This document shows positions 29,117 through 36,991 of a stretch of DNA of 64,000 bases, piece by piece. The position numbers and the translations under genes are program-made. How positions within the stretch are numbered: the stretch's first letter is position 1; each line of letters opens with the position of its first letter. Source of the DNA: Cyanobacteria bacterium FACHB-63 (lineage in GTDB: Bacteria > Cyanobacteriota > Cyanobacteriia > Leptolyngbyales > Leptolyngbyaceae); NCBI GenBank assembly GCA_014695255.1, contig JACJNX010000099.1, forward strand, positions 1-64,000, given 5' to 3'. The notes beneath the pieces are model-generated. The model made no database searches, was not told where the DNA came from, and saw nothing but the letters and a program-made list of their open reading frames with translations.

Positions 29117-29626
29117 TGATCAATACAAGAGTTGCAGTCTGATTCATTGTAGAACGAGCGTTGCAGCCTTATATCATCAGACTGAATCGGCTTTCTGCAT
29201 GGTTGCTTTTTGCCTCACACGAACTCAGGTATTTGTGCAGAACGATCAGATTGCAGTATTTTCCGAAGCGATGGGGCGACAGCGAGTAGGTTTACTGAGA
29301 AAATTACGGCGTTTGTGGCGAATGTTGTACTGTTCGTGGCGAATGTCATAAGATTTGTGGCGAATGTTGTAACGTTCGTGGCGAATGCTGCGGTTTTCAC
29401 CAAGAACGGTTTAACGATCGTCACGACAAGTTAAACCGATACGATGACAAGCAAAGCAGATACGGCGACAAGCTGAATCGATGCGACGACAAGCAGGTGA
29501 GGTCTGCATCAGCTTGGCTTAATCTTATCTCATCTGATAGAGGAGCAAGACTCGATCGCTTTCTAAGATGGTTCGGCTAGATCAATCAATTGCTTCAAAT
29601 TGCAATTTAATTACAGGGAAATCAGG
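29117..29626. other. Gene-free region holding a 21-bp repeat array
   Basis: 510 bp between the divergent alpha/beta hydrolase and aldo/keto reductase genes. The centre (29304-29493) is a 21-bp periodic array. The flanks should hold both promoters; I see no convincing -35/-10 pairs. Frames on both strands across the array encode heptad repeats but look like by-products of the period. Confidence 0.5.
29304..29493. repeat. Degenerate 21-bp tandem array A (9 units)
   Basis: Nine consecutive units begin at 29304, 29325, 29346, 29367, 29388, 29409, 29431, 29452 and 29473. All are 21 bp except the sixth (22 bp). The first four end in TT(T/C)GTGGCGAATG. The last three share a core GATACG(A/G)(T/C)GACAAG, so the sequence drifts along the array while the period is held. 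There are no unique spacers. On the minus strand the first half reads as a TTFATNV heptad. Confidence 0.85.
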
Positions 29627-30625: not shown

Positions 30626-30735
30626 TCAACAGTTCAGTGGGTCAATCACGCAAGAAGTTTACTTTCTCAATGCTTTGCGCCCACATTTCCTTGTCAGAAT
30701 TGTATAAATTATTTATCTATGCACGATTGCACATT

Positions 30736-30945
30736 ATGACTGAAATCGTATTTCTTATCGAAGATGCACCCGAAGGCGGTTATACTGCTCGCGCCTTGAG
30801 CGAATCAATCTTTACCGAAGCTGATGACATCGATCGCCTACGTGAAGAAATCCGCGATGCCGTTAGATGCCACTTTCCAGACGAACAAGCTCGTCCTAAA
30901 CTCATTCGTCTACATTTCGTGCGAGATGAGGTTATCGCCTCGTGA
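30736..30945 (+). CDS. HicB-like antitoxin
   Basis: A 69-aa acidic protein, MTEIVFLIEDAPEGGYTARAL followed by SIFTEADDIDRLREEIRDAVRCHF. It resembles the HicB-type partial RNase-H fold found before hicA genes in cyanobacteria, often misnamed 2-oxoisovalerate dehydrogenase. Upstream codons to 30637 do not fit, so ATG 30736 is chosen. It overlaps the next gene by 4 bp (GTGA), as expected for a toxin-antitoxin pair. Unlike classical HicB it lacks a C-terminal DNA-binding domain. Confidence 0.75.
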   Translation: MTEIVFLIEDAPEGGYTARALSESIFTEADDIDRLREEIRDAVRCHFPDEQARPKLIRLHFVRDEVIAS

Positions 30946-31187
30946 AACTTCCGCGAGACCTTTCTGGTTCAGAACTTGCCAAGCGGCTCAAACGGTTTGA
31001 ATACGTCATTGATCATCAAACAGGCAGCCATATCCGCTTAACGACACAACAAAACGGAGAACATCACATTACAATTCCTGCCCACGATCCGCTCAAGGTT
31101 GGAACTCTTTCCGCAATTCTGAGGGATATTGCTGAGCATTTAGATTTAAGCCGTGATGATCTGATTGCTGAACTATTTCAGAAATAG
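30942..31187 (+). CDS. HicA-type mRNA interferase toxin
   Basis: An 81-aa HicA/YcfA protein with a double-stranded-RNA-binding-like fold. It has DLSGSELAKRLKRFEYVIDHQTGSHIRLT, with the catalytic-type GSH, then HHITIPAHDPLKVGTLSAILRDIAEHL. GTG 30942 overlaps the stop of the HicB-like gene. It is predicted to cleave mRNA in trans unless bound by its partner. This is one of two HicAB pairs in the window (see 52110-52519). Confidence 0.85.
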   Translation: MKLPRDLSGSELAKRLKRFEYVIDHQTGSHIRLTTQQNGEHHITIPAHDPLKVGTLSAILRDIAEHLDLSRDDLIAELFQK

Positions 31188-31207: not shown

Positions 31208-32845
31208 TCACTCTAATCCGTGACTCTTCCCAATGACCCAATGCCGCTTGAAGAATCGCGCCAGACTAGATTCTTCAAGCGATAGATAGATCGGGCGACC
31301 GTGTGGACAAGTGCGTGGATTGCGGGTTTTCTGCCAGCGATCAAGCAAAGATTGCATTTCTTCGATCGACAATGGCACTCCATTGCGAATTGCACTCCGA
31401 CAAGCGACCGCGACCTGAGCCGCCTGCAAATCTCCGCCTAAACTGAGTTCGATCAATGCAGCGGTACAGTCTTCGCGTTGAATCAGTAGCTCAGGAGCCG
31501 ATCGTACTGCCCAAAGTTGCTCTCCGAATGGGTCAACTTCAATGCCAATTCGTTGTAACTGTTCGATCTGAGACATAGAGAGTTGATTGAGAACGATCGC
31601 AGGTTCAAGCGGAATCAGTTGCCAGCGATCGCTAATCTCTTCAAACAAAACGCGCTCATGGGCGATGTGCTGCTCAATTAACCACATTCCTGAAGGATGC
31701 TCTGCCAGAATGTAGCGGTTGTGAACTTGGGTCAGTGCTTTGAGTGGAAATAAAGCCGAAGGTTCAGCCGGAATCTCACGCGAGACATGATAGCCTGCAT
31801 CCGATTCAGCCGCTTTGATCAGTTGGCTCACTTGTGAAGTGTAGAGGCTATCGGGAACAGCTTCGGGATTGATGCGGAGCGCTTGAGCGATCGCGCCCTT
31901 TACCCGCTCTTTCCAATCATCGAGATTGTGTAAGTACACTTCAGCTTTGGCAGGATGGCGATTCCAGTCGATGTGTTCGGGGTTGAGTTGCAGATGAACC
32001 AAACAAATCGGATGTCGATCGCGGGGTAATGTTCTGCGAAATGCGCCTAAGATGGTTTGCTCTAGCTCTGGAAATTGCACAAATCGACCATTAATCGCAA
32101 CTCTCACCCAATCGGGACGATGCCGTGAGGTGCGATCGGGGAGTCCTAACACTAAAGAAAGTGCAGCAGACCGAAGCTCAGTTAAATCATCAATTCGCAC
32201 ATCTTTTAATAGTTGCGGTAACAAGTCCTTTGCAGAGTTACCTGCCCAAAGATTGAACCATAATCGATCGTTTTGATAGACCTGCCAAGTAATGTGTGGA
32301 TGAGCTAAAGCAATTTGATAAATCGTTTGTTGAACTGCTTTTAACTGTTGTGAGGTAGAGGGTAATCCTTCGCGTCTGGCTTCCCAGGTTTCAAACAAGC
32401 GATCGACAATCACAATCGTTCCGGGTGCGATCGCAACGGATTCGACTTGATCGACTGCTCCTTCAGTCGTGTAAGCCACACGCCAGCCTGCATCATCAGG
32501 GGTACGACTCAGAATTTCTAGCTTTGAGAGTTGAGCTAGACTGTGCAAAGCTTCACCCCGAAATCCTAAGCTTTGAATCTGCCATAAATCGGCGCGATCG
32601 CGAATTTTGCTGGTACTGTGTGGCTGTGCCGCTTGGCGTAAATTCTCTAAATTCATGCCTGCACCATTATCCGCGACTCGTACCCGCCATTGGTCAGCCC
32701 AAATTGAAACAGTAAGGCGTGTGGCTCCGGCATCGATCGCATTTTCAACGAGTTCGCGCACGACTGCGGCAAGAGAATCGATCACTTCTCCGGCAGCAAT
32801 GAGGTGAACGACTTCGATCGGTAGTGGTTGAATCTGATGTCCCAT
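31208..32845 (-). CDS. mutL: DNA mismatch repair protein MutL
   Basis: A 545-aa MutL. The N-terminal GHKL ATPase has IAAGEVI, VVRELVENAIDAGA (E31, N35), VADNGAGM (D59) and SLGFRGEALHSL. The transducer has INGRFVQFP and RHPAK.EV. The C-terminal endonuclease domain shows EQHIAHERVLFE (391-402) in place of the canonical DQHAX2EX4E, with ACRSAIRNG and CPHGRP also present. The metal site is therefore largely kept, but the first Asp is Glu. It couples mismatch recognition by MutS to strand removal. Confidence 0.93.
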   Translation of the reverse strand: MGHQIQPLPIEVVHLIAAGEVIDSLAAVVRELVENAIDAGATRLTVSIWADQWRVRVADNGAGMNLENLRQAAQPHSTSKIRDRADLWQIQSLGFRGEALHSLAQLSKLEILSRTPDDAGWRVAYTTEGAVDQVESVAIAPGTIVIVDRLFETWEARREGLPSTSQQLKAVQQTIYQIALAHPHITWQVYQNDRLWFNLWAGNSAKDLLPQLLKDVRIDDLTELRSAALSLVLGLPDRTSRHRPDWVRVAINGRFVQFPELEQTILGAFRRTLPRDRHPICLVHLQLNPEHIDWNRHPAKAEVYLHNLDDWKERVKGAIAQALRINPEAVPDSLYTSQVSQLIKAAESDAGYHVSREIPAEPSALFPLKALTQVHNRYILAEHPSGMWLIEQHIAHERVLFEEISDRWQLIPLEPAIVLNQLSMSQIEQLQRIGIEVDPFGEQLWAVRSAPELLIQREDCTAALIELSLGGDLQAAQVAVACRSAIRNGVPLSIEEMQSLLDRWQKTRNPRTCPHGRPIYLSLEESSLARFFKRHWVIGKSHGLE

Positions 32846-32866
32846 TTCTTCAGTTTACAAAAATGA

Positions 32867-33139
32867 AGTCGGGCTTGAAGTCGTAAGTCTCGTGAATGAG
32901 TTAAAAATACTCGTGGTCGAGTTTCAAATACTGGCGCTTGAGTTTCAAAGACTCGTGAGTGAGTCCTAAACACTCGTGAACGAGACAAAAATACTCGTTG
33001 TTGAGTTCTAAACACTCGCGAATGAGATAAAAATACTCGTGCTTGAGTTCTAAAGTCTCGCCACCGAATCCTAAATACTCACCGTTGAGTTCTGAATACT
33101 CGCCATCGAGTTAAAAAGGCTCGTCATCGTATCACAGCG
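32867..33139. repeat. 21-bp tandem array B (13 units, strict register)
   Basis: Thirteen contiguous units of exactly 21 bp begin at 32867 and every 21 bp to 33119. Each is roughly (A/T)CTCG, then five variable bases, GAGT, then a T/C/A-rich tail ending AAA(T/C/G). ACTCG and GAGT form a small inverted repeat inside each unit, so the array could fold as a row of hairpins or bind a dimeric protein. The conserved bases hold while the centre varies. The array fills most of the mutL-NACHT gene gap. On the minus strand it reads as an RVF.THS heptad. Confidence 0.93.
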
Positions 33140-33216
33140 CTTCTGTAATTTCTTTGAATAATCCGTGTTGGAATGCGATCGCAGTGTATCAATGAGAAAA
33201 GTTTCCTTCAATTGAT

Positions 33217-35388
33217 ATGACGATCGATCCCATTTCACAGGCAGTCATTACAAATCTGATCAAACTTGCGATCGAGTTCGGTTGGAAACAAGCCGGAAAC
33301 CAAATCGATAAGAAACTCCATCAGCAAGTTGGCAACGCGATGGAGGAGTATGTCAGAACTTATGAAAAACGCCACTGTACGCTGAAATATGATTGCCTGC
33401 GAATGGATAATTCGCTGACATTAGAGGATATTTATACGGATGTCCAAGTCTTGAATACTCGCGAGAGCCGCCGTTTTGAATCTCCCGAAGCGCTGAAGGA
33501 ACTGTTTCTAGAAACGGGGCGAGGATTTGTCTTCGAGAAAACGACTCGTCAAGAAGGCATCGCAGTGGCGAATCTTGAACCTCGGCTGATGGTGTTAGGC
33601 AGTCCGGGAATTGGAAAATCGACGTTTTTGAGAAAGGTTGGACTCGAAGCGCTCAAGTGGCAGACCGCAAGGTTTCGACACGAATTGATTCCCGTGTTTA
33701 TTGAATTGAAGCAATTTGGCGATCGACACTCCGATATCGAGAAATTGATCGTAGAAGAGTTTGAAACCTGTGGGTTTCCGAATGCGGAAACATTCACGCA
33801 GAATCTTTTGCAGGCAGGAAAGCTGTTGATTTTGTTGGATGGGTTGGATGAAGTGCCAACGGCGCATGTCGATCGAGCGATCGAGCAGATTGGGAAGCTG
33901 GTCGATCGATATGACAAAAATCGCTTTATTGCCTCCTGTCGAATTGCAGCGTATAAAGGTGGATTTCTGCGATTCAAAGATGTGACGATGGCGGACTTTA
34001 GCGATTCGCAAATCGAAACGTTTGTGCGGCAGTGGTTCAGACGAGAGCCAAAGATAGCCGATCAATACTGGGAATTGCTCAACAGTTCAGACTACAAAGC
34101 GGTCAAGGAATTAGGACAAACGCCGTTACTCTTAACCTTACTTTGTGCGGTTTACGATGAATCGCAGAGCTTACCCAAGCAAAGAGCCGCGTTATATGGG
34201 GAGGCATTGGAAGTTTGGTTAAAGAAATGGGCAGCAGAACGACGAGTTCACCGTGATCCGATTTATCAAGAATTGAACCTTCAGCTAGAACAAGTCTTAC
34301 TGTCTGAGATTGCTTACCAAAGTTTTGCAGAAGATCAGCTATTTTTCTCAAAGCGGGAACTAACTGACCAAATCCGAGCCTTTCTAGTCAATAATCTCAA
34401 TGCACCGAAACATCTAGATGCGGAAGCTGCGCTCTATGCCATCCAAGTGCAACAAGGAATTTTAGTCGAACGTGCCAGAGATACTTTTTCGTTCTCGCAT
34501 CTAACATTTCAGGAATATCTAACGGCTCAGTATATTGTTGATGAACAGCAAATAGAAACGCTAGTAGCCAATCATTTAACTGATTCCCGTTGGCGTGAGG
34601 TTTTCTTCCTTATCTCTGGTCTAATGCGAAACGCTGACGCACTTCTAACTCTGATGGAGTCTGAAGCACAAAAGCTAATCCATACAGAGAAACTAAAAGC
34701 ATTGCTCAAATGGACAAGTGATGTGACTACTGGATCATTAGATGATTTCAAGCCAGCAGCTAAAAGGGTTGTTGCACCCTTCTACGCCCGCTCATCAGAT
34801 GATTTTAAGCCAGCAGCTAAAAGGACTGTTGCACTCTTCTACGCCTGCGCCCGCGCCTACGTCCTCGACCACGTCCTCGACCGCACCTACGACCGCACCC
34901 GTGTCCTCGACCGCGCCTACGACCGCGCCCGCGTCCTCACCCGCGTTCTCGACCGCGATTGTGCCCGTGACTTTGCCCTCGCCCTCGACCGTGCCCTTGC
35001 CCTCGCCCGCACCCTCGCCTGCGGGCGCAACCTTACCCGCGCCCTTGCCCTCGCCTGCGTCCGCGCTCACGACCTCGCCGAAATCTTCACCTCTGTTGAT
35101 TGCCAAGCTTTAGTTAATCAACTTGAAGCAATGAGAGAGCCAGGGCTAAGCAATGATGCACCGTTAGAAGAGCAGCGAGCTTTTGCCGATCGGCTCCAAC
35201 AGACTTGGCACAACGCTCTCCACCTGGATTCAGAATGGCTTGAACTATCAAAGGAAGAAGCAGACACGATCGAAAACTATCTCTATGCCAATGAACTCAT
35301 GGTTCGCTGCAAAGAAGCTGCCTTGCGAGTGTCGCCGCAGGTGTGGAACGCGATCGAATCCCGAATGCTCACCGTTCAGGATGAATAG
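33217..35388 (+). CDS. NACHT-domain NTPase with repeat-rich C-terminus
   Basis: A 723-aa STAND NTPase. Residues 1-115 are a helical N-terminal domain (ISQAVITNLIKLAIEFGWKQAG). The NACHT core follows with Walker A LGSPGIGKSTFL (about 127-138), LIPVFIEL, Walker B LLILLDGLDE and later FSHLTFQEYLTAQYI. After about 505 comes a 19-residue unit twice in tandem, then about 75 residues of Arg/Asp/Ala/Leu repeats (e.g. LDRAYDRARVL) and a helical end. Bacterial NACHT proteins include anti-phage sensors. Here the effector, if any, is not recognisable, and two PIN toxin pairs lie just downstream. Confidence 0.85.
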   Translation: MTIDPISQAVITNLIKLAIEFGWKQAGNQIDKKLHQQVGNAMEEYVRTYEKRHCTLKYDCLRMDNSLTLEDIYTDVQVLNTRESRRFESPEALKELFLETGRGFVFEKTTRQEGIAVANLEPRLMVLGSPGIGKSTFLRKVGLEALKWQTARFRHELIPVFIELKQFGDRHSDIEKLIVEEFETCGFPNAETFTQNLLQAGKLLILLDGLDEVPTAHVDRAIEQIGKLVDRYDKNRFIASCRIAAYKGGFLRFKDVTMADFSDSQIETFVRQWFRREPKIADQYWELLNSSDYKAVKELGQTPLLLTLLCAVYDESQSLPKQRAALYGEALEVWLKKWAAERRVHRDPIYQELNLQLEQVLLSEIAYQSFAEDQLFFSKRELTDQIRAFLVNNLNAPKHLDAEAALYAIQVQQGILVERARDTFSFSHLTFQEYLTAQYIVDEQQIETLVANHLTDSRWREVFFLISGLMRNADALLTLMESEAQKLIHTEKLKALLKWTSDVTTGSLDDFKPAAKRVVAPFYARSSDDFKPAAKRTVALFYACARAYVLDHVLDRTYDRTRVLDRAYDRARVLTRVLDRDCARDFALALDRALALARTLACGRNLTRALALACVRAHDLAEIFTSVDCQALVNQLEAMREPGLSNDAPLEEQRAFADRLQQTWHNALHLDSEWLELSKEEADTIENYLYANELMVRCKEAALRVSPQVWNAIESRMLTVQDE
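34741..34854 (+). repeat. 57-bp tandem duplication inside the NACHT gene
   Basis: Units 34741-34797 and 34798-34854 encode DDFKPAAKRVVAPFYARSS and DDFKPAAKRTVALFYACAR. The duplication is in frame and recent (few differences). It precedes the Arg/Ala/Leu-rich repeat tract. Confidence 0.9.
34855..35088 (+). repeat. GC-rich 6-bp-period tract in the NACHT gene
   Basis: Dominated by dipeptide-coding hexamers such as CTCGAC, CGCGCC and GCCCTC, encoding alternating Leu/Arg/Ala/Asp. It is far richer in G+C than the rest of the gene. Long but meaningless frames appear on both strands here. The tract is expected to be length-unstable. Confidence 0.8.
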
Positions 35389-35465: not shown

Positions 35466-35663
35466 ATGAAAGGCTACATCAAAAACAAAACAATCATCCT
35501 AATCGATCCCCTTCCTGACAACCTACAGGACGGGGATGAAGTCGAAGTGTCTGTTACCCCTGCTCCGAAGCAAGCGCTTCCTTTCCCGACCTTCAACTTC
35601 GGCATCAAAGACGAATATCTTGAGCGCGATCGCATCTATGAGCAAGACTCGAATTCTATTTGA
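35466..35663 (+). CDS. Antitoxin of a PIN toxin pair
   Basis: A 65-aa protein, MKGYIKNKTIILIDPLPDNLQDGDEVEVSV..., like the short beta-strand antitoxins that precede PIN genes in cyanobacteria. It has an N-terminal GYI.NKTIIL.D.LP strand pattern with an acidic DGDEVEV turn, and a C-terminal toxin-binding tail. It overlaps the PIN gene start by 26 bp. The pair lies between the two 43-bp direct repeats. Confidence 0.65.
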   Translation: MKGYIKNKTIILIDPLPDNLQDGDEVEVSVTPAPKQALPFPTFNFGIKDEYLERDRIYEQDSNSI

Positions 35664-36108
35664 CACGAACGTTTTAGTTTACGCTCATGATGCTGCCTCT
35701 CGTTATCACAATGATTCCGCCGCTTTATTACTCCAAGCCTTCCAGCAGAATATACAGGGAGTCTTAGCCGAACAGAACATCATTGAGCTTTACCGAATTC
35801 TTACCAATCCAGTCGCCATGACCGGAAATGCGCTCACGCCTCAACAAGCACAAACATTAATCAAGTCAACCTATCTCAATGGAAACTTTGAAGTTATTTA
35901 CCCTAATTTCTCGACTATCGATCGCCTCTTAGACTTAGCCGTAATTCGCAATATCACTTCAGCCAAGATTTTCGATCTGCGGCTCGCTGCTCTGGTTCTA
36001 GAGTCACAAATCGATCATTTCGCAACGTACAACCTTCGAGACTTTCAACAAATTAACGACCTAAACGCGATCGATCCCCCATCACTTCTCGCCCTGCTTG
36101 GTTTATAA
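35638..36108 (+). CDS. PIN-domain ribonuclease toxin (VapC-like)
   Basis: A 156-aa PIN protein. MSKTRILFDTNVLVYAHD has the first acidic residue, the middle has LAEQNIIELYRILTNP (Glu), and ARIF-like SAKIFDLRLAALVLESQIDHFATYNLRDFQ supplies the last Asp residues. The frame is open to 35536, but ATG 35638 starts at the family's first strand. Stop TAA 36106-36108 is followed at once by the second 43-bp repeat. It is predicted to cut tRNA or other RNA when freed from its antitoxin. Confidence 0.85.
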   Translation: MSKTRILFDTNVLVYAHDAASRYHNDSAALLLQAFQQNIQGVLAEQNIIELYRILTNPVAMTGNALTPQQAQTLIKSTYLNGNFEVIYPNFSTIDRLLDLAVIRNITSAKIFDLRLAALVLESQIDHFATYNLRDFQQINDLNAIDPPSLLALLGL

Positions 36109-36151
36109 CGAATCCCGAATGCTCACCGTTCAGGATGAATAGTGCGATCGT
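36109..36151 (+). repeat. 43-bp direct repeat, copy 2
   Basis: Exact copy of 35355-35397, beginning at the base after the PIN stop codon. Here it is non-coding. With copy 1 it brackets the antitoxin/PIN pair. Confidence 0.95.
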
Positions 36152-36230
36152 CATCATTTAACGAATTTCTTGCCAAAATCATATAAGCAGCCTCTCAAAA
36201 GTGACTGCGCCTGTATCCTTGTAAAAAACA

Positions 36231-36515
36231 ATGCAAATTACGATCGAGATTCCTGACACATTAGCCCATCAGCTACAAATCAACCCAGAGGATTTAGAGC
36301 GAAAAATGCTCGAACTGTGCGTGATTGAAGCCTATCGAACCGCACGAATTAGTTCAGGCAAAGCCAGAGAATTGCTTGGATTTGAAACTCAGCTTGAACT
36401 CGATGTGTTTTTCAAAGAACGATCGATCGATCTCAACTATGATTTGTCCGACTTACAACAGGATCTAGAGACGCTAGAAACCCTTCAACAAGAAGAGAAT
36501 TTAGCGCAGACATGA
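36231..36515 (+). CDS. UPF0175 family antitoxin
   Basis: A 94-aa protein, MQITIEIPDTLAHQL followed by ERKMLELCVIEAYRTARISSGKARELLGFETQLELDVFFKER, the standard UPF0175 pattern (a short strand, then helices with a GKARELLG turn). These are small antitoxins paired with DUF3368 PIN proteins. The stop overlaps the next start by 4 bp (ATGA at 36512-36515). Confidence 0.85.
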   Translation: MQITIEIPDTLAHQLQINPEDLERKMLELCVIEAYRTARISSGKARELLGFETQLELDVFFKERSIDLNYDLSDLQQDLETLETLQQEENLAQT

Positions 36516-36991
36516 TCGTTATCTCTGATACTTCTCCCCTCTGCTACCTGCTGCTGATCGATCTAATCGACTTGTTACCGGAGTTATACAATCGCGTCAT
36601 CATTCCTGAAACCATTCGAGATGAATTAGCTGCATCAAAATCGCCCCTGATCGTTCAAGCTTGGATTGCTCAACCTCCGAAGTGGTTAGAAATTAGAGCA
36701 GTAACCACCGCAACCAATCTTTTCGTGGATGAACTCGACTCAGGAGAGCGAGACGCAATCTCATTAGCAGAAGAATTGCAAGCTGATCTCATTCTTCTCG
36801 ACGATCAAGCCGCAAGAAATATTGCCTCTAAACGAGGACTTGCGATCGTCGGTGTTTTAGGAATTTTGGTCAAAGCAGGGCAGCAACAAAAGATTGATTT
36901 TCCCTCTGCAATTGCTCGACTAAAACAAACATCCTTTCGCGCTTCTGCCAGTTTGATTCAAGCATTACTCGACCAATTTGCACAGACTTAG
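36512..36991 (+). CDS. DUF3368 PIN-domain toxin
   Basis: A 159-aa PIN protein starting MIVISDTSPLCYLLLIDLIDLLPELY, with the acid in SDTSPL. It continues VIIPETIRDEL, LDSGERDAISLAEEL.ADLILLDDQAARNIA (Glu/Asp cluster) and ends with helix LIQALLDQFA. It is the toxin partner of the UPF0175 protein and the second PIN pair after the NACHT gene. Confidence 0.88.
   Translation: MIVISDTSPLCYLLLIDLIDLLPELYNRVIIPETIRDELAASKSPLIVQAWIAQPPKWLEIRAVTTATNLFVDELDSGERDAISLAEELQADLILLDDQAARNIASKRGLAIVGVLGILVKAGQQQKIDFPSAIARLKQTSFRASASLIQALLDQFAQT

Follow-up and report, generated by a model that had tools for sequence, protein, structure and literature searches.

STRR sequences are tandem repeats of heptamers that occur in cyanobacteria and other organisms. 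Iterons and ParR/omega partition sites comprise approximately 10 tandem sites of 7 to 21 bp, to which dimers bind in phase; they are single sites beside the gene of their own protein and are mostly plasmid borne. Small dispersed repeats of Nostoc, i.e., very small repeats in cyanobacterial genomes, were reportedly described by Elhai et al. in 2008. In the passages available from the relevant reports, TAACTGA heptamer arrays are dispersed and mostly intergenic, change by whole-unit copies, have a patchy distribution in Cyanobacteria and some Bacteroidetes, and reach up to 43 copies (PMC4679880); GGGNATC heptamer repeats form dispersed tandem arrays (PMC4692102); and REPs occur as singlets or inverted doublets of 20 to 40 bp (PMC3733652, PMC3116915). 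The available part of PMC4907049 deals with repeats other than 21-bp dyad arrays, and a full-text literature search, in which subscription journals were mostly not covered, returned no description of such arrays.

The window (i.e., the whole stretch of 64,000 nucleotides that was analyzed) carries a row of 21-bp units flanked by the following features.

31208 to 32845, minus strand: mutL, flanking gene
32852 to 32862, no strand assigned: mutL-side anchor (reverse complement of TTTTGTAAACT), found directly ahead of mutL in relatives too
32867 to 33139, no strand assigned: 21-bp array read in register, 13 units, the outer two decayed
32888 to 33111, no strand assigned: array core, 11 units of ACTC-N6-GAGT with 0 to 2 arm mismatches
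33174 to 33192, no strand assigned: NACHT-side anchor (reverse complement of TTGATACACTGCGATCGCA)
33217 to 35388, plus strand: gene of a NACHT-NCH2 protein, flanking gene

The preliminary description had placed 13 units in exact 21-bp register at 32867 to 33139, between mutL and the NACHT gene. Both statements hold: the two divergent genes bracket the array, and self-identity over 32880 to 33130 peaks at lags 21, 42, and 63 (0.65 to 0.67), with no other lag between 5 and 69 exceeding 0.4. The arms had been given as ACTCG and GAGT around a variable center; the variable center is real, but the invariant arms are ACTC and GAGT and the center has 6 bases. Spacers of 7 bp, mostly A-rich (e.g., TTCAAAT), separate the arm pairs, and the outer units at 32867 and 33119 have three mismatches each over the eight arm positions. 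The register is kept even though approximately 35% of positions differ between units. TRF scores of the array reach 241, and the same scan that returned 59 tandem repeat rows from 1.40 Mb of the own genome returned none after block shuffling. The internal dyads of the preliminary description were also recovered, in units set at a spacing of two helical turns. Judged from sequence, the arrays show what an array of dimeric operator sites would require, namely constrained symmetric half-sites in a fixed helical phase, but the whole-unit dyad score of the window array is weak (p = 0.13, not significant).

A genome-wide motif search, proposed in the preliminary description, found similar arrays scattered across the own genome. 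We compared eight genomes of the genus (G000 to G007, of which G000 is the own genome). Contigs of the own genome carry phycobilisome and CAAD-domain genes, which mark it as cyanobacterial. With a two-unit motif at up to three mismatches, the own genome gave 94 forward and 87 reverse matches, while the reversed control gave 1 and 5. The corresponding forward/reverse counts, with those of the reversed control in parentheses, were 45/38 (0/1) for G004, 7/11 (2/0) for G007, 9/5 (3/2) for G003, 11/3 (3/2) for G005, 5/5 (3/2) for G002, 4/2 (5/6) for G001, and 1/3 (2/1) for G006. Eleven arrays in 10 loci of the own genome, the window array included, were read in register (contigs C101, C115, C138, C30, C89, C165, C102, C179, and, with three arrays, C68); they span 8 to 14 units, the search itself having advanced by multiples of 21. 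The window array thus has many counterparts, and a fast-changing repeat family held to a two-turn spacing describes it better than a special switch of a neighboring gene. Two of the loci (L034:8746-8976 on C30, which holds a type I restriction specificity gene, and L037:8863-9114 on C89) resemble each other; the array occupies the same position in both, with units that have diverged.

Across the phylum, the exact two-unit motif was present in 8 of 386 sampled genomes; seven of these belong to a single other family, and the eighth is the own genome. A large named collection contained the motif in at least 108 stretches, from which taxon counts are lower bounds. Among the matches listed, 73 of 80 titles were cyanobacterial, and the taxa included Nostoc, Scytonema, Fischerella, Westiellopsis, Brasilonema, Microseira, and Tildeniella. 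The arrays are thus found mainly in filamentous cyanobacteria. The other seven of the 80 titles listed were non-cyanobacterial, and three of them hold arrays of 9 to 11 units, as follows.

L088, Bacteroidetes MAG: ACTC-type 21-bp array
L112, Aquimarina: ACTC-type 21-bp array
L076, Verrucomicrobia MAG: ACTC-type 21-bp array

The units of the Verrucomicrobia MAG are almost identical to those of Microseira, for which transfer, mis-binning, and convergence are all possible explanations. The Bacteroidetes array has a 1-bp register shift close to its end. Eight stretches of viral contigs had one motif match each.

The family has a consistent anatomy, although arrays were picked by their arms and by chains stepping in multiples of 21, which biases the description of arms and register and, to a smaller degree, the ortholog comparison given below. 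In 104 de-duplicated arrays, the 762 units with perfect arms use 117 of the 2,080 possible centers. The center ATTCAC/GTGAAT is present in 44 of these arrays, and the commonest spacer (ATCAAAG/CTTTGAT) is present in 59. A column-wise consensus on both strands lengthens the dyad to ACTCGT-NN-ACGAGT. Array length is most often 13 units, the shortest arrays having 5 and the longest 17 (94 array rows from 108 loci, with a preset floor of 5 units, a few rows being overlapping duplicates or truncated at a locus end). In a set of 101 arrays, 983 steps were of 21, 42, or 63 bp, compared with 6 strong units off register, which were sought only within an array or up to 63 bp from it; 3,152 of 22,701 positions diverged from the consensus of the array to which they belong. 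This set leaves out seven loci with non-cyanobacterial titles (three of them with arrays, L088 included) and counts in three G004 orthologs of G000 loci; the titles of L141 to L168 were not displayed, and the set may hold a few other organisms.

Of the 101 arrays, 21 were locus-edge cases and 17 were flagged inside open reading frames, of which only those of L038 and L063 were accepted. For the 67 intergenic arrays with both neighbors seen, 22 gaps were convergent, 32 tandem, and 13 divergent, compared with 23, 98, and 50 of 171 control gaps that measured 250 bp or more and came from these loci (genes being greedy, uncurated open reading frames of at least 90 amino acids). Convergent gaps are therefore enriched for arrays (22/67 versus 23/171; p = 0.0014), and divergent gaps are not (13/67 versus 50/171; p = 0.14). 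Identified neighbors include mutL, NACHT, Uma2, a transketolase-like gene, valS, RNB, and hsdS.

The majority of arrays are intergenic; at least three are in frame within genes (two histidine kinases and one alpha-mannosidase; the kinase array of G003 lies beyond the 101-array set). The genes with in-frame repeats are as follows.

L038:8347-8598; L270, L272, L288:9208-9452: histidine kinases with in-frame 7-residue repeats
L063:6646-6995: GH38 alpha-mannosidase of a Tildeniella MAG, approximately 17 heptad units, in frame, separating the N-terminal domain from the middle domain

The L038 array belongs to the own genome and lies in the ATPase domain of a giant hybrid histidine kinase, between the N and G1 boxes. 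At the equivalent position, kinases of G007 and G005 carry 7-residue repeat inserts that differ in sequence, and a G003 homolog has no heptad insert. A different histidine kinase of G003 contains an ACTC-type insert in another frame, by eye in the linker between the ATPase and receiver domains. At L125, an array lies in frame ahead of an MFS gene, where its translation is uncertain.

These in-frame cases would suit a coding origin, active or remnant, in which each 21-bp unit amounts to seven codons and would specify one heptapeptide of a repeat; for most of the 94 array rows, one or more reading frames are open. The window array, however, has stops in six of six frames, the open frames of most arrays stop within a few tens of codons beyond the array, and a look-alike family in two genomes has a period of 20 bp; we consider this origin the least credible of those weighed here. 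The class of coding heptad repeats was accordingly rejected for the window array, given stops in all frames, and describes L038, L063, and the G003 kinase.

The arrays might instead be a neutral or selfish minisatellite. Slippage, unequal exchange, and gene conversion would then drive both the spread and the turnover of its units, which would serve no function in the host; the arms would persist because they favor hairpin-mediated slippage or are recognized by the copying machinery. In its favor are the scatter of the arrays, the preference for convergent gaps, where insertion does least harm, the location of in-gene arrays in loops and linkers, and motif counts near those of the control in several members of the genus. 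We regard this explanation as a substantial possibility, if one of less than even probability.

The preliminary description had suggested a regulatory or protein-binding element just upstream of the NACHT gene, and an operator array in cis to the divergent mutL/NACHT promoters would fit the position between divergent genes. In the own genome, arrays stand beside two NACHT paralogs (C179 and C115), a coincidence that would favor such regulation; the array upstream of the second paralog is common to G000 (C115) and G004 (C22). However, none of 20 further NACHT-match regions of the genus (two of them contigs of 4.5 and 5.2 kb) has an ACTC-type array, the other repeats there being a weak 21-bp repeat outside genes (L294:2387) and a 63-bp repeat within a gene (L296). 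NACHT is also not enriched among genes of at least 700 amino acids (3 of 16 array neighbors versus 5 of 23 non-neighbor genes from the array loci). Shorter genes were compared by Pfam (117 immediate neighbors of <700 amino acids versus 117 other genes of the same loci, after 33 of 150 controls, i.e., 24 window rows and 9 others including the G004 NACHT gene at the mutL site, had been left out). NACHT is absent from the 25 families displayed per tally, one short neighbor (L032) matching it. There is a hint of Uma2 near arrays (9 neighbors versus 2 controls; Fisher p = 0.059). PADLOC tallies were similar for the two sets (150 and 155 families), giving no clear pointer to defense islands.

The mutL site in relatives also speaks against the operator. 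The anchors lie 311 bp apart in G000 and 223 bp apart in G007; in G002, where NACHT adjoins mutL without an array, 33 bp separate them. G007 has a 21-bp array whose sequence is unrelated to that of G000, and the nearby NACHT match is only a 28-residue remnant; at deeper divergence, even the unit family differs at this one site. In G004, two extra short open reading frames lie between the array and the NACHT gene. Within 32600 to 33400 of the window, no sigma-70-like promoter was found, and one terminator-like site compares with 0.9 expected. Arrays scattered across the genome, with copies within genes, were the refuting result named in the preliminary description, and by that criterion a regulatory reading specific to NACHT fails; the convergent preference, the lack of enrichment in divergent gaps, and the lack of NACHT enrichment point in the same direction, and regulation of these promoters is very unlikely. 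Side observations at this locus are coding low-complexity repeats (57, 30 to 42, and 18 bp) between the NACHT and NCH2 domains (34735 to 35019) and, on either side of the mutL/NACHT block (30637 to 31187 and 35536 to 36991), small paired open reading frames that by eye resemble toxin-antitoxin pairs.

The units might instead act as a row of small hairpins within a transcript. The plus strand of the window array folds better than shuffles (z = -2.89), and, in 40 arrays in tandem context, units capable of G·U pairing are in the sense orientation in 21 and antisense in 12, with 7 ties. This strand bias is not significant (p = 0.16), the minus strand folds as well (z = -1.61), and folding on both strands is expected of any palindromic array. 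No Rfam family reached its curated threshold in 28 to 38 kb, the single sub-threshold row being a snoRNA (E = 0.14) at 37.9 kb. An RNA role thus appears improbable, much like promoter regulation.

Evidence on constraint comes from four orthologous ACTC-type arrays compared between G000 and G004, whose flanking matches are 89 to 94% identical. The arms changed at 31 of 360 positions (8.6%), the centers at 78 of 270 (28.9%), and the spacers at 85 of 315 (27.0%), in a tally whose G004 C11 unit list takes in two flank units; the sparing of the arms is significant relative to centers and spacers (Fisher p = 3e-11 and 2e-10, respectively). Gaps within the aligned arrays were 42 bp at C115 and 21 bp in the array at 29.3 kb, no internal gap was present at C138 or mutL, and the right edge of the C101 array did not align cleanly. 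Sites therefore persist while units are rewritten, with arms and spacing spared. The data directly support constraint on the symmetric arms, constraint on the two-turn spacing, and rapid change of units at stable sites. Fast rewriting, like the occurrence of different unit families at one and the same site, suits a neutral minisatellite. Against neutrality, centers and spacers change three times as often as arms between these sister genomes, the register of the window array is intact despite its unit differences, and length stays within the range given above in the rows examined.

The two-turn period extends beyond the ACTC family. The arrays concerned are as follows.

29310 to 29498, no strand assigned: second non-coding 21-bp array of the window, with other units (a TTCGTGGCGAA half and a CGACAAGC half)
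L035:273-567 (G000 C68) and L287:1783-2123 (G004): array with a 20-bp period, approximately 10 or more units

The preliminary description had likened the window array to the one at 29.3 kb; the period is common to both, but the unit sequence differs. The G004 ortholog of the latter (L041:15940-16250) is partly homogenized to another unit. Repeats of CGACAAGC or a close variant, spaced near 21 or 62 bp, were also seen in G000 and G002 (L241:3374-3500, L246:200-330, L218:16640-16810, and 29415 to 29498 of the window). In 60 loci not selected for an array (1.19 Mb), 10 merged tandem repeats outside genes had periods of 10 to 70, and the period was a multiple of 21 in 4 of them, against a baseline of 3 in 61 possible periods; this count (L202 to L268 rows) takes in L204, which is doubtful as non-coding. 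With array-selected loci included, the proportion was 15 of 23, most of them in loci chosen for arrays. A dyad common to all two-turn families was considered and rejected, being significant in some and absent in others (p = 0.999 for the second half of the 29.3-kb array; p = 0.15 and 0.31 for the 20-bp family). The period is therefore more general than the dyad.

The window array is, in the reading that we favor at roughly even confidence, one of the sites held by a family of tandem-dyad minisatellites that is scattered throughout the genome and whose arms and two-turn spacing are constrained, most simply through a dimeric protein. Binding of dimers along one face of the DNA would be the most economical single cause of constraint on both. 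Each site would typically hold about a dozen units of exactly 21 bp, i.e., two helical turns, and could last long, while its units would change fast by substitution and by whole-unit gain, loss, and exchange; the ACTC/GAGT arms and the spacing would outlast this turnover. Each unit would be the site of a putative dimeric DNA-binding protein, so that approximately 12 dimers may line one DNA face. The putative binder may be a host architectural protein or a part of the machinery that amplifies the arrays. The anatomy and dispersal of the arrays, their register, the sparing of arms between the two sister genomes, the persistence of sites, the copies within genes, and the absence of NACHT enrichment were observed directly. 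We infer both the protein binding and the turnover mechanism, and arm conservation could stem from needs of an amplification step instead of a host function, which would look alike. A protein-recognized minisatellite is the most likely of the explanations, with something like a one-in-two chance; a neutral or selfish one follows as the next, and specific regulation of NACHT or mutL is unlikely. A more far-reaching idea, which we offer as speculative and rather improbable, is that filamentous cyanobacteria possess satellite-like arrays that inherit their place and a two-turn ruler (20 to 21 bp, about a dozen units), exchange one family of unit sequence for another in the manner of satellite DNA in eukaryotes, and are coated by dedicated dimeric proteins as a system of chromosome architecture.

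The usual explanations of repeat arrays in bacteria are slippage or an operator function for a single gene. Here, the same chromosomal sites keep the two-turn period and the symmetric arms while the remainder of the unit is rewritten. If a protein is responsible, this would represent an unrecognized system that binds at many places on the cyanobacterial chromosome; if not, the arrays would be a clean natural experiment on the means by which the period of a minisatellite is maintained. In either case, gene calls and regulatory predictions near such arrays should be treated with care.

As the preliminary description had proposed, the repeat family matched no described class so far, and we could not match it to any of the described kinds, the nearest candidates being compared by description or partial passages. 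CRISPR arrays differ in that the window spacers are 7 bp long and recurring, and the flanks are mutL and NACHT rather than cas genes. Iterons and partition sites stand alone beside a rep or par gene, whereas there are at least 11 sites here, next to unrelated genes. The dispersed Nostoc repeats reportedly described by Elhai et al. are likewise very small and cyanobacterial. With REP, BIME, and REPIN elements, as far as the available passages describe them, the arrays share short palindromes, an extragenic location, and many copies per genome; the 21-bp units, however, are direct and head to tail in one register and not isolated palindromes or inverted doublets. Of the described kinds that we found, the heptamer arrays of cyanobacteria and Bacteroidetes come closest, going by the available parts of the reports (PMC4679880, PMC4692102). 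The 21-bp arrays are also dispersed and mostly intergenic, change length unit by unit, and have an odd Cyanobacteria/Bacteroidetes distribution. They reach at most 17 units in the rows examined, compared with the 43 copies given for TAACTGA in the passages seen (PMC4679880), and the self-identity lags of the window array contain no sub-period of 7 or 14. Their unit, in contrast to the 7-bp unit of the heptamer repeats in those passages, has 21 bp and is a dyad with a variable center.
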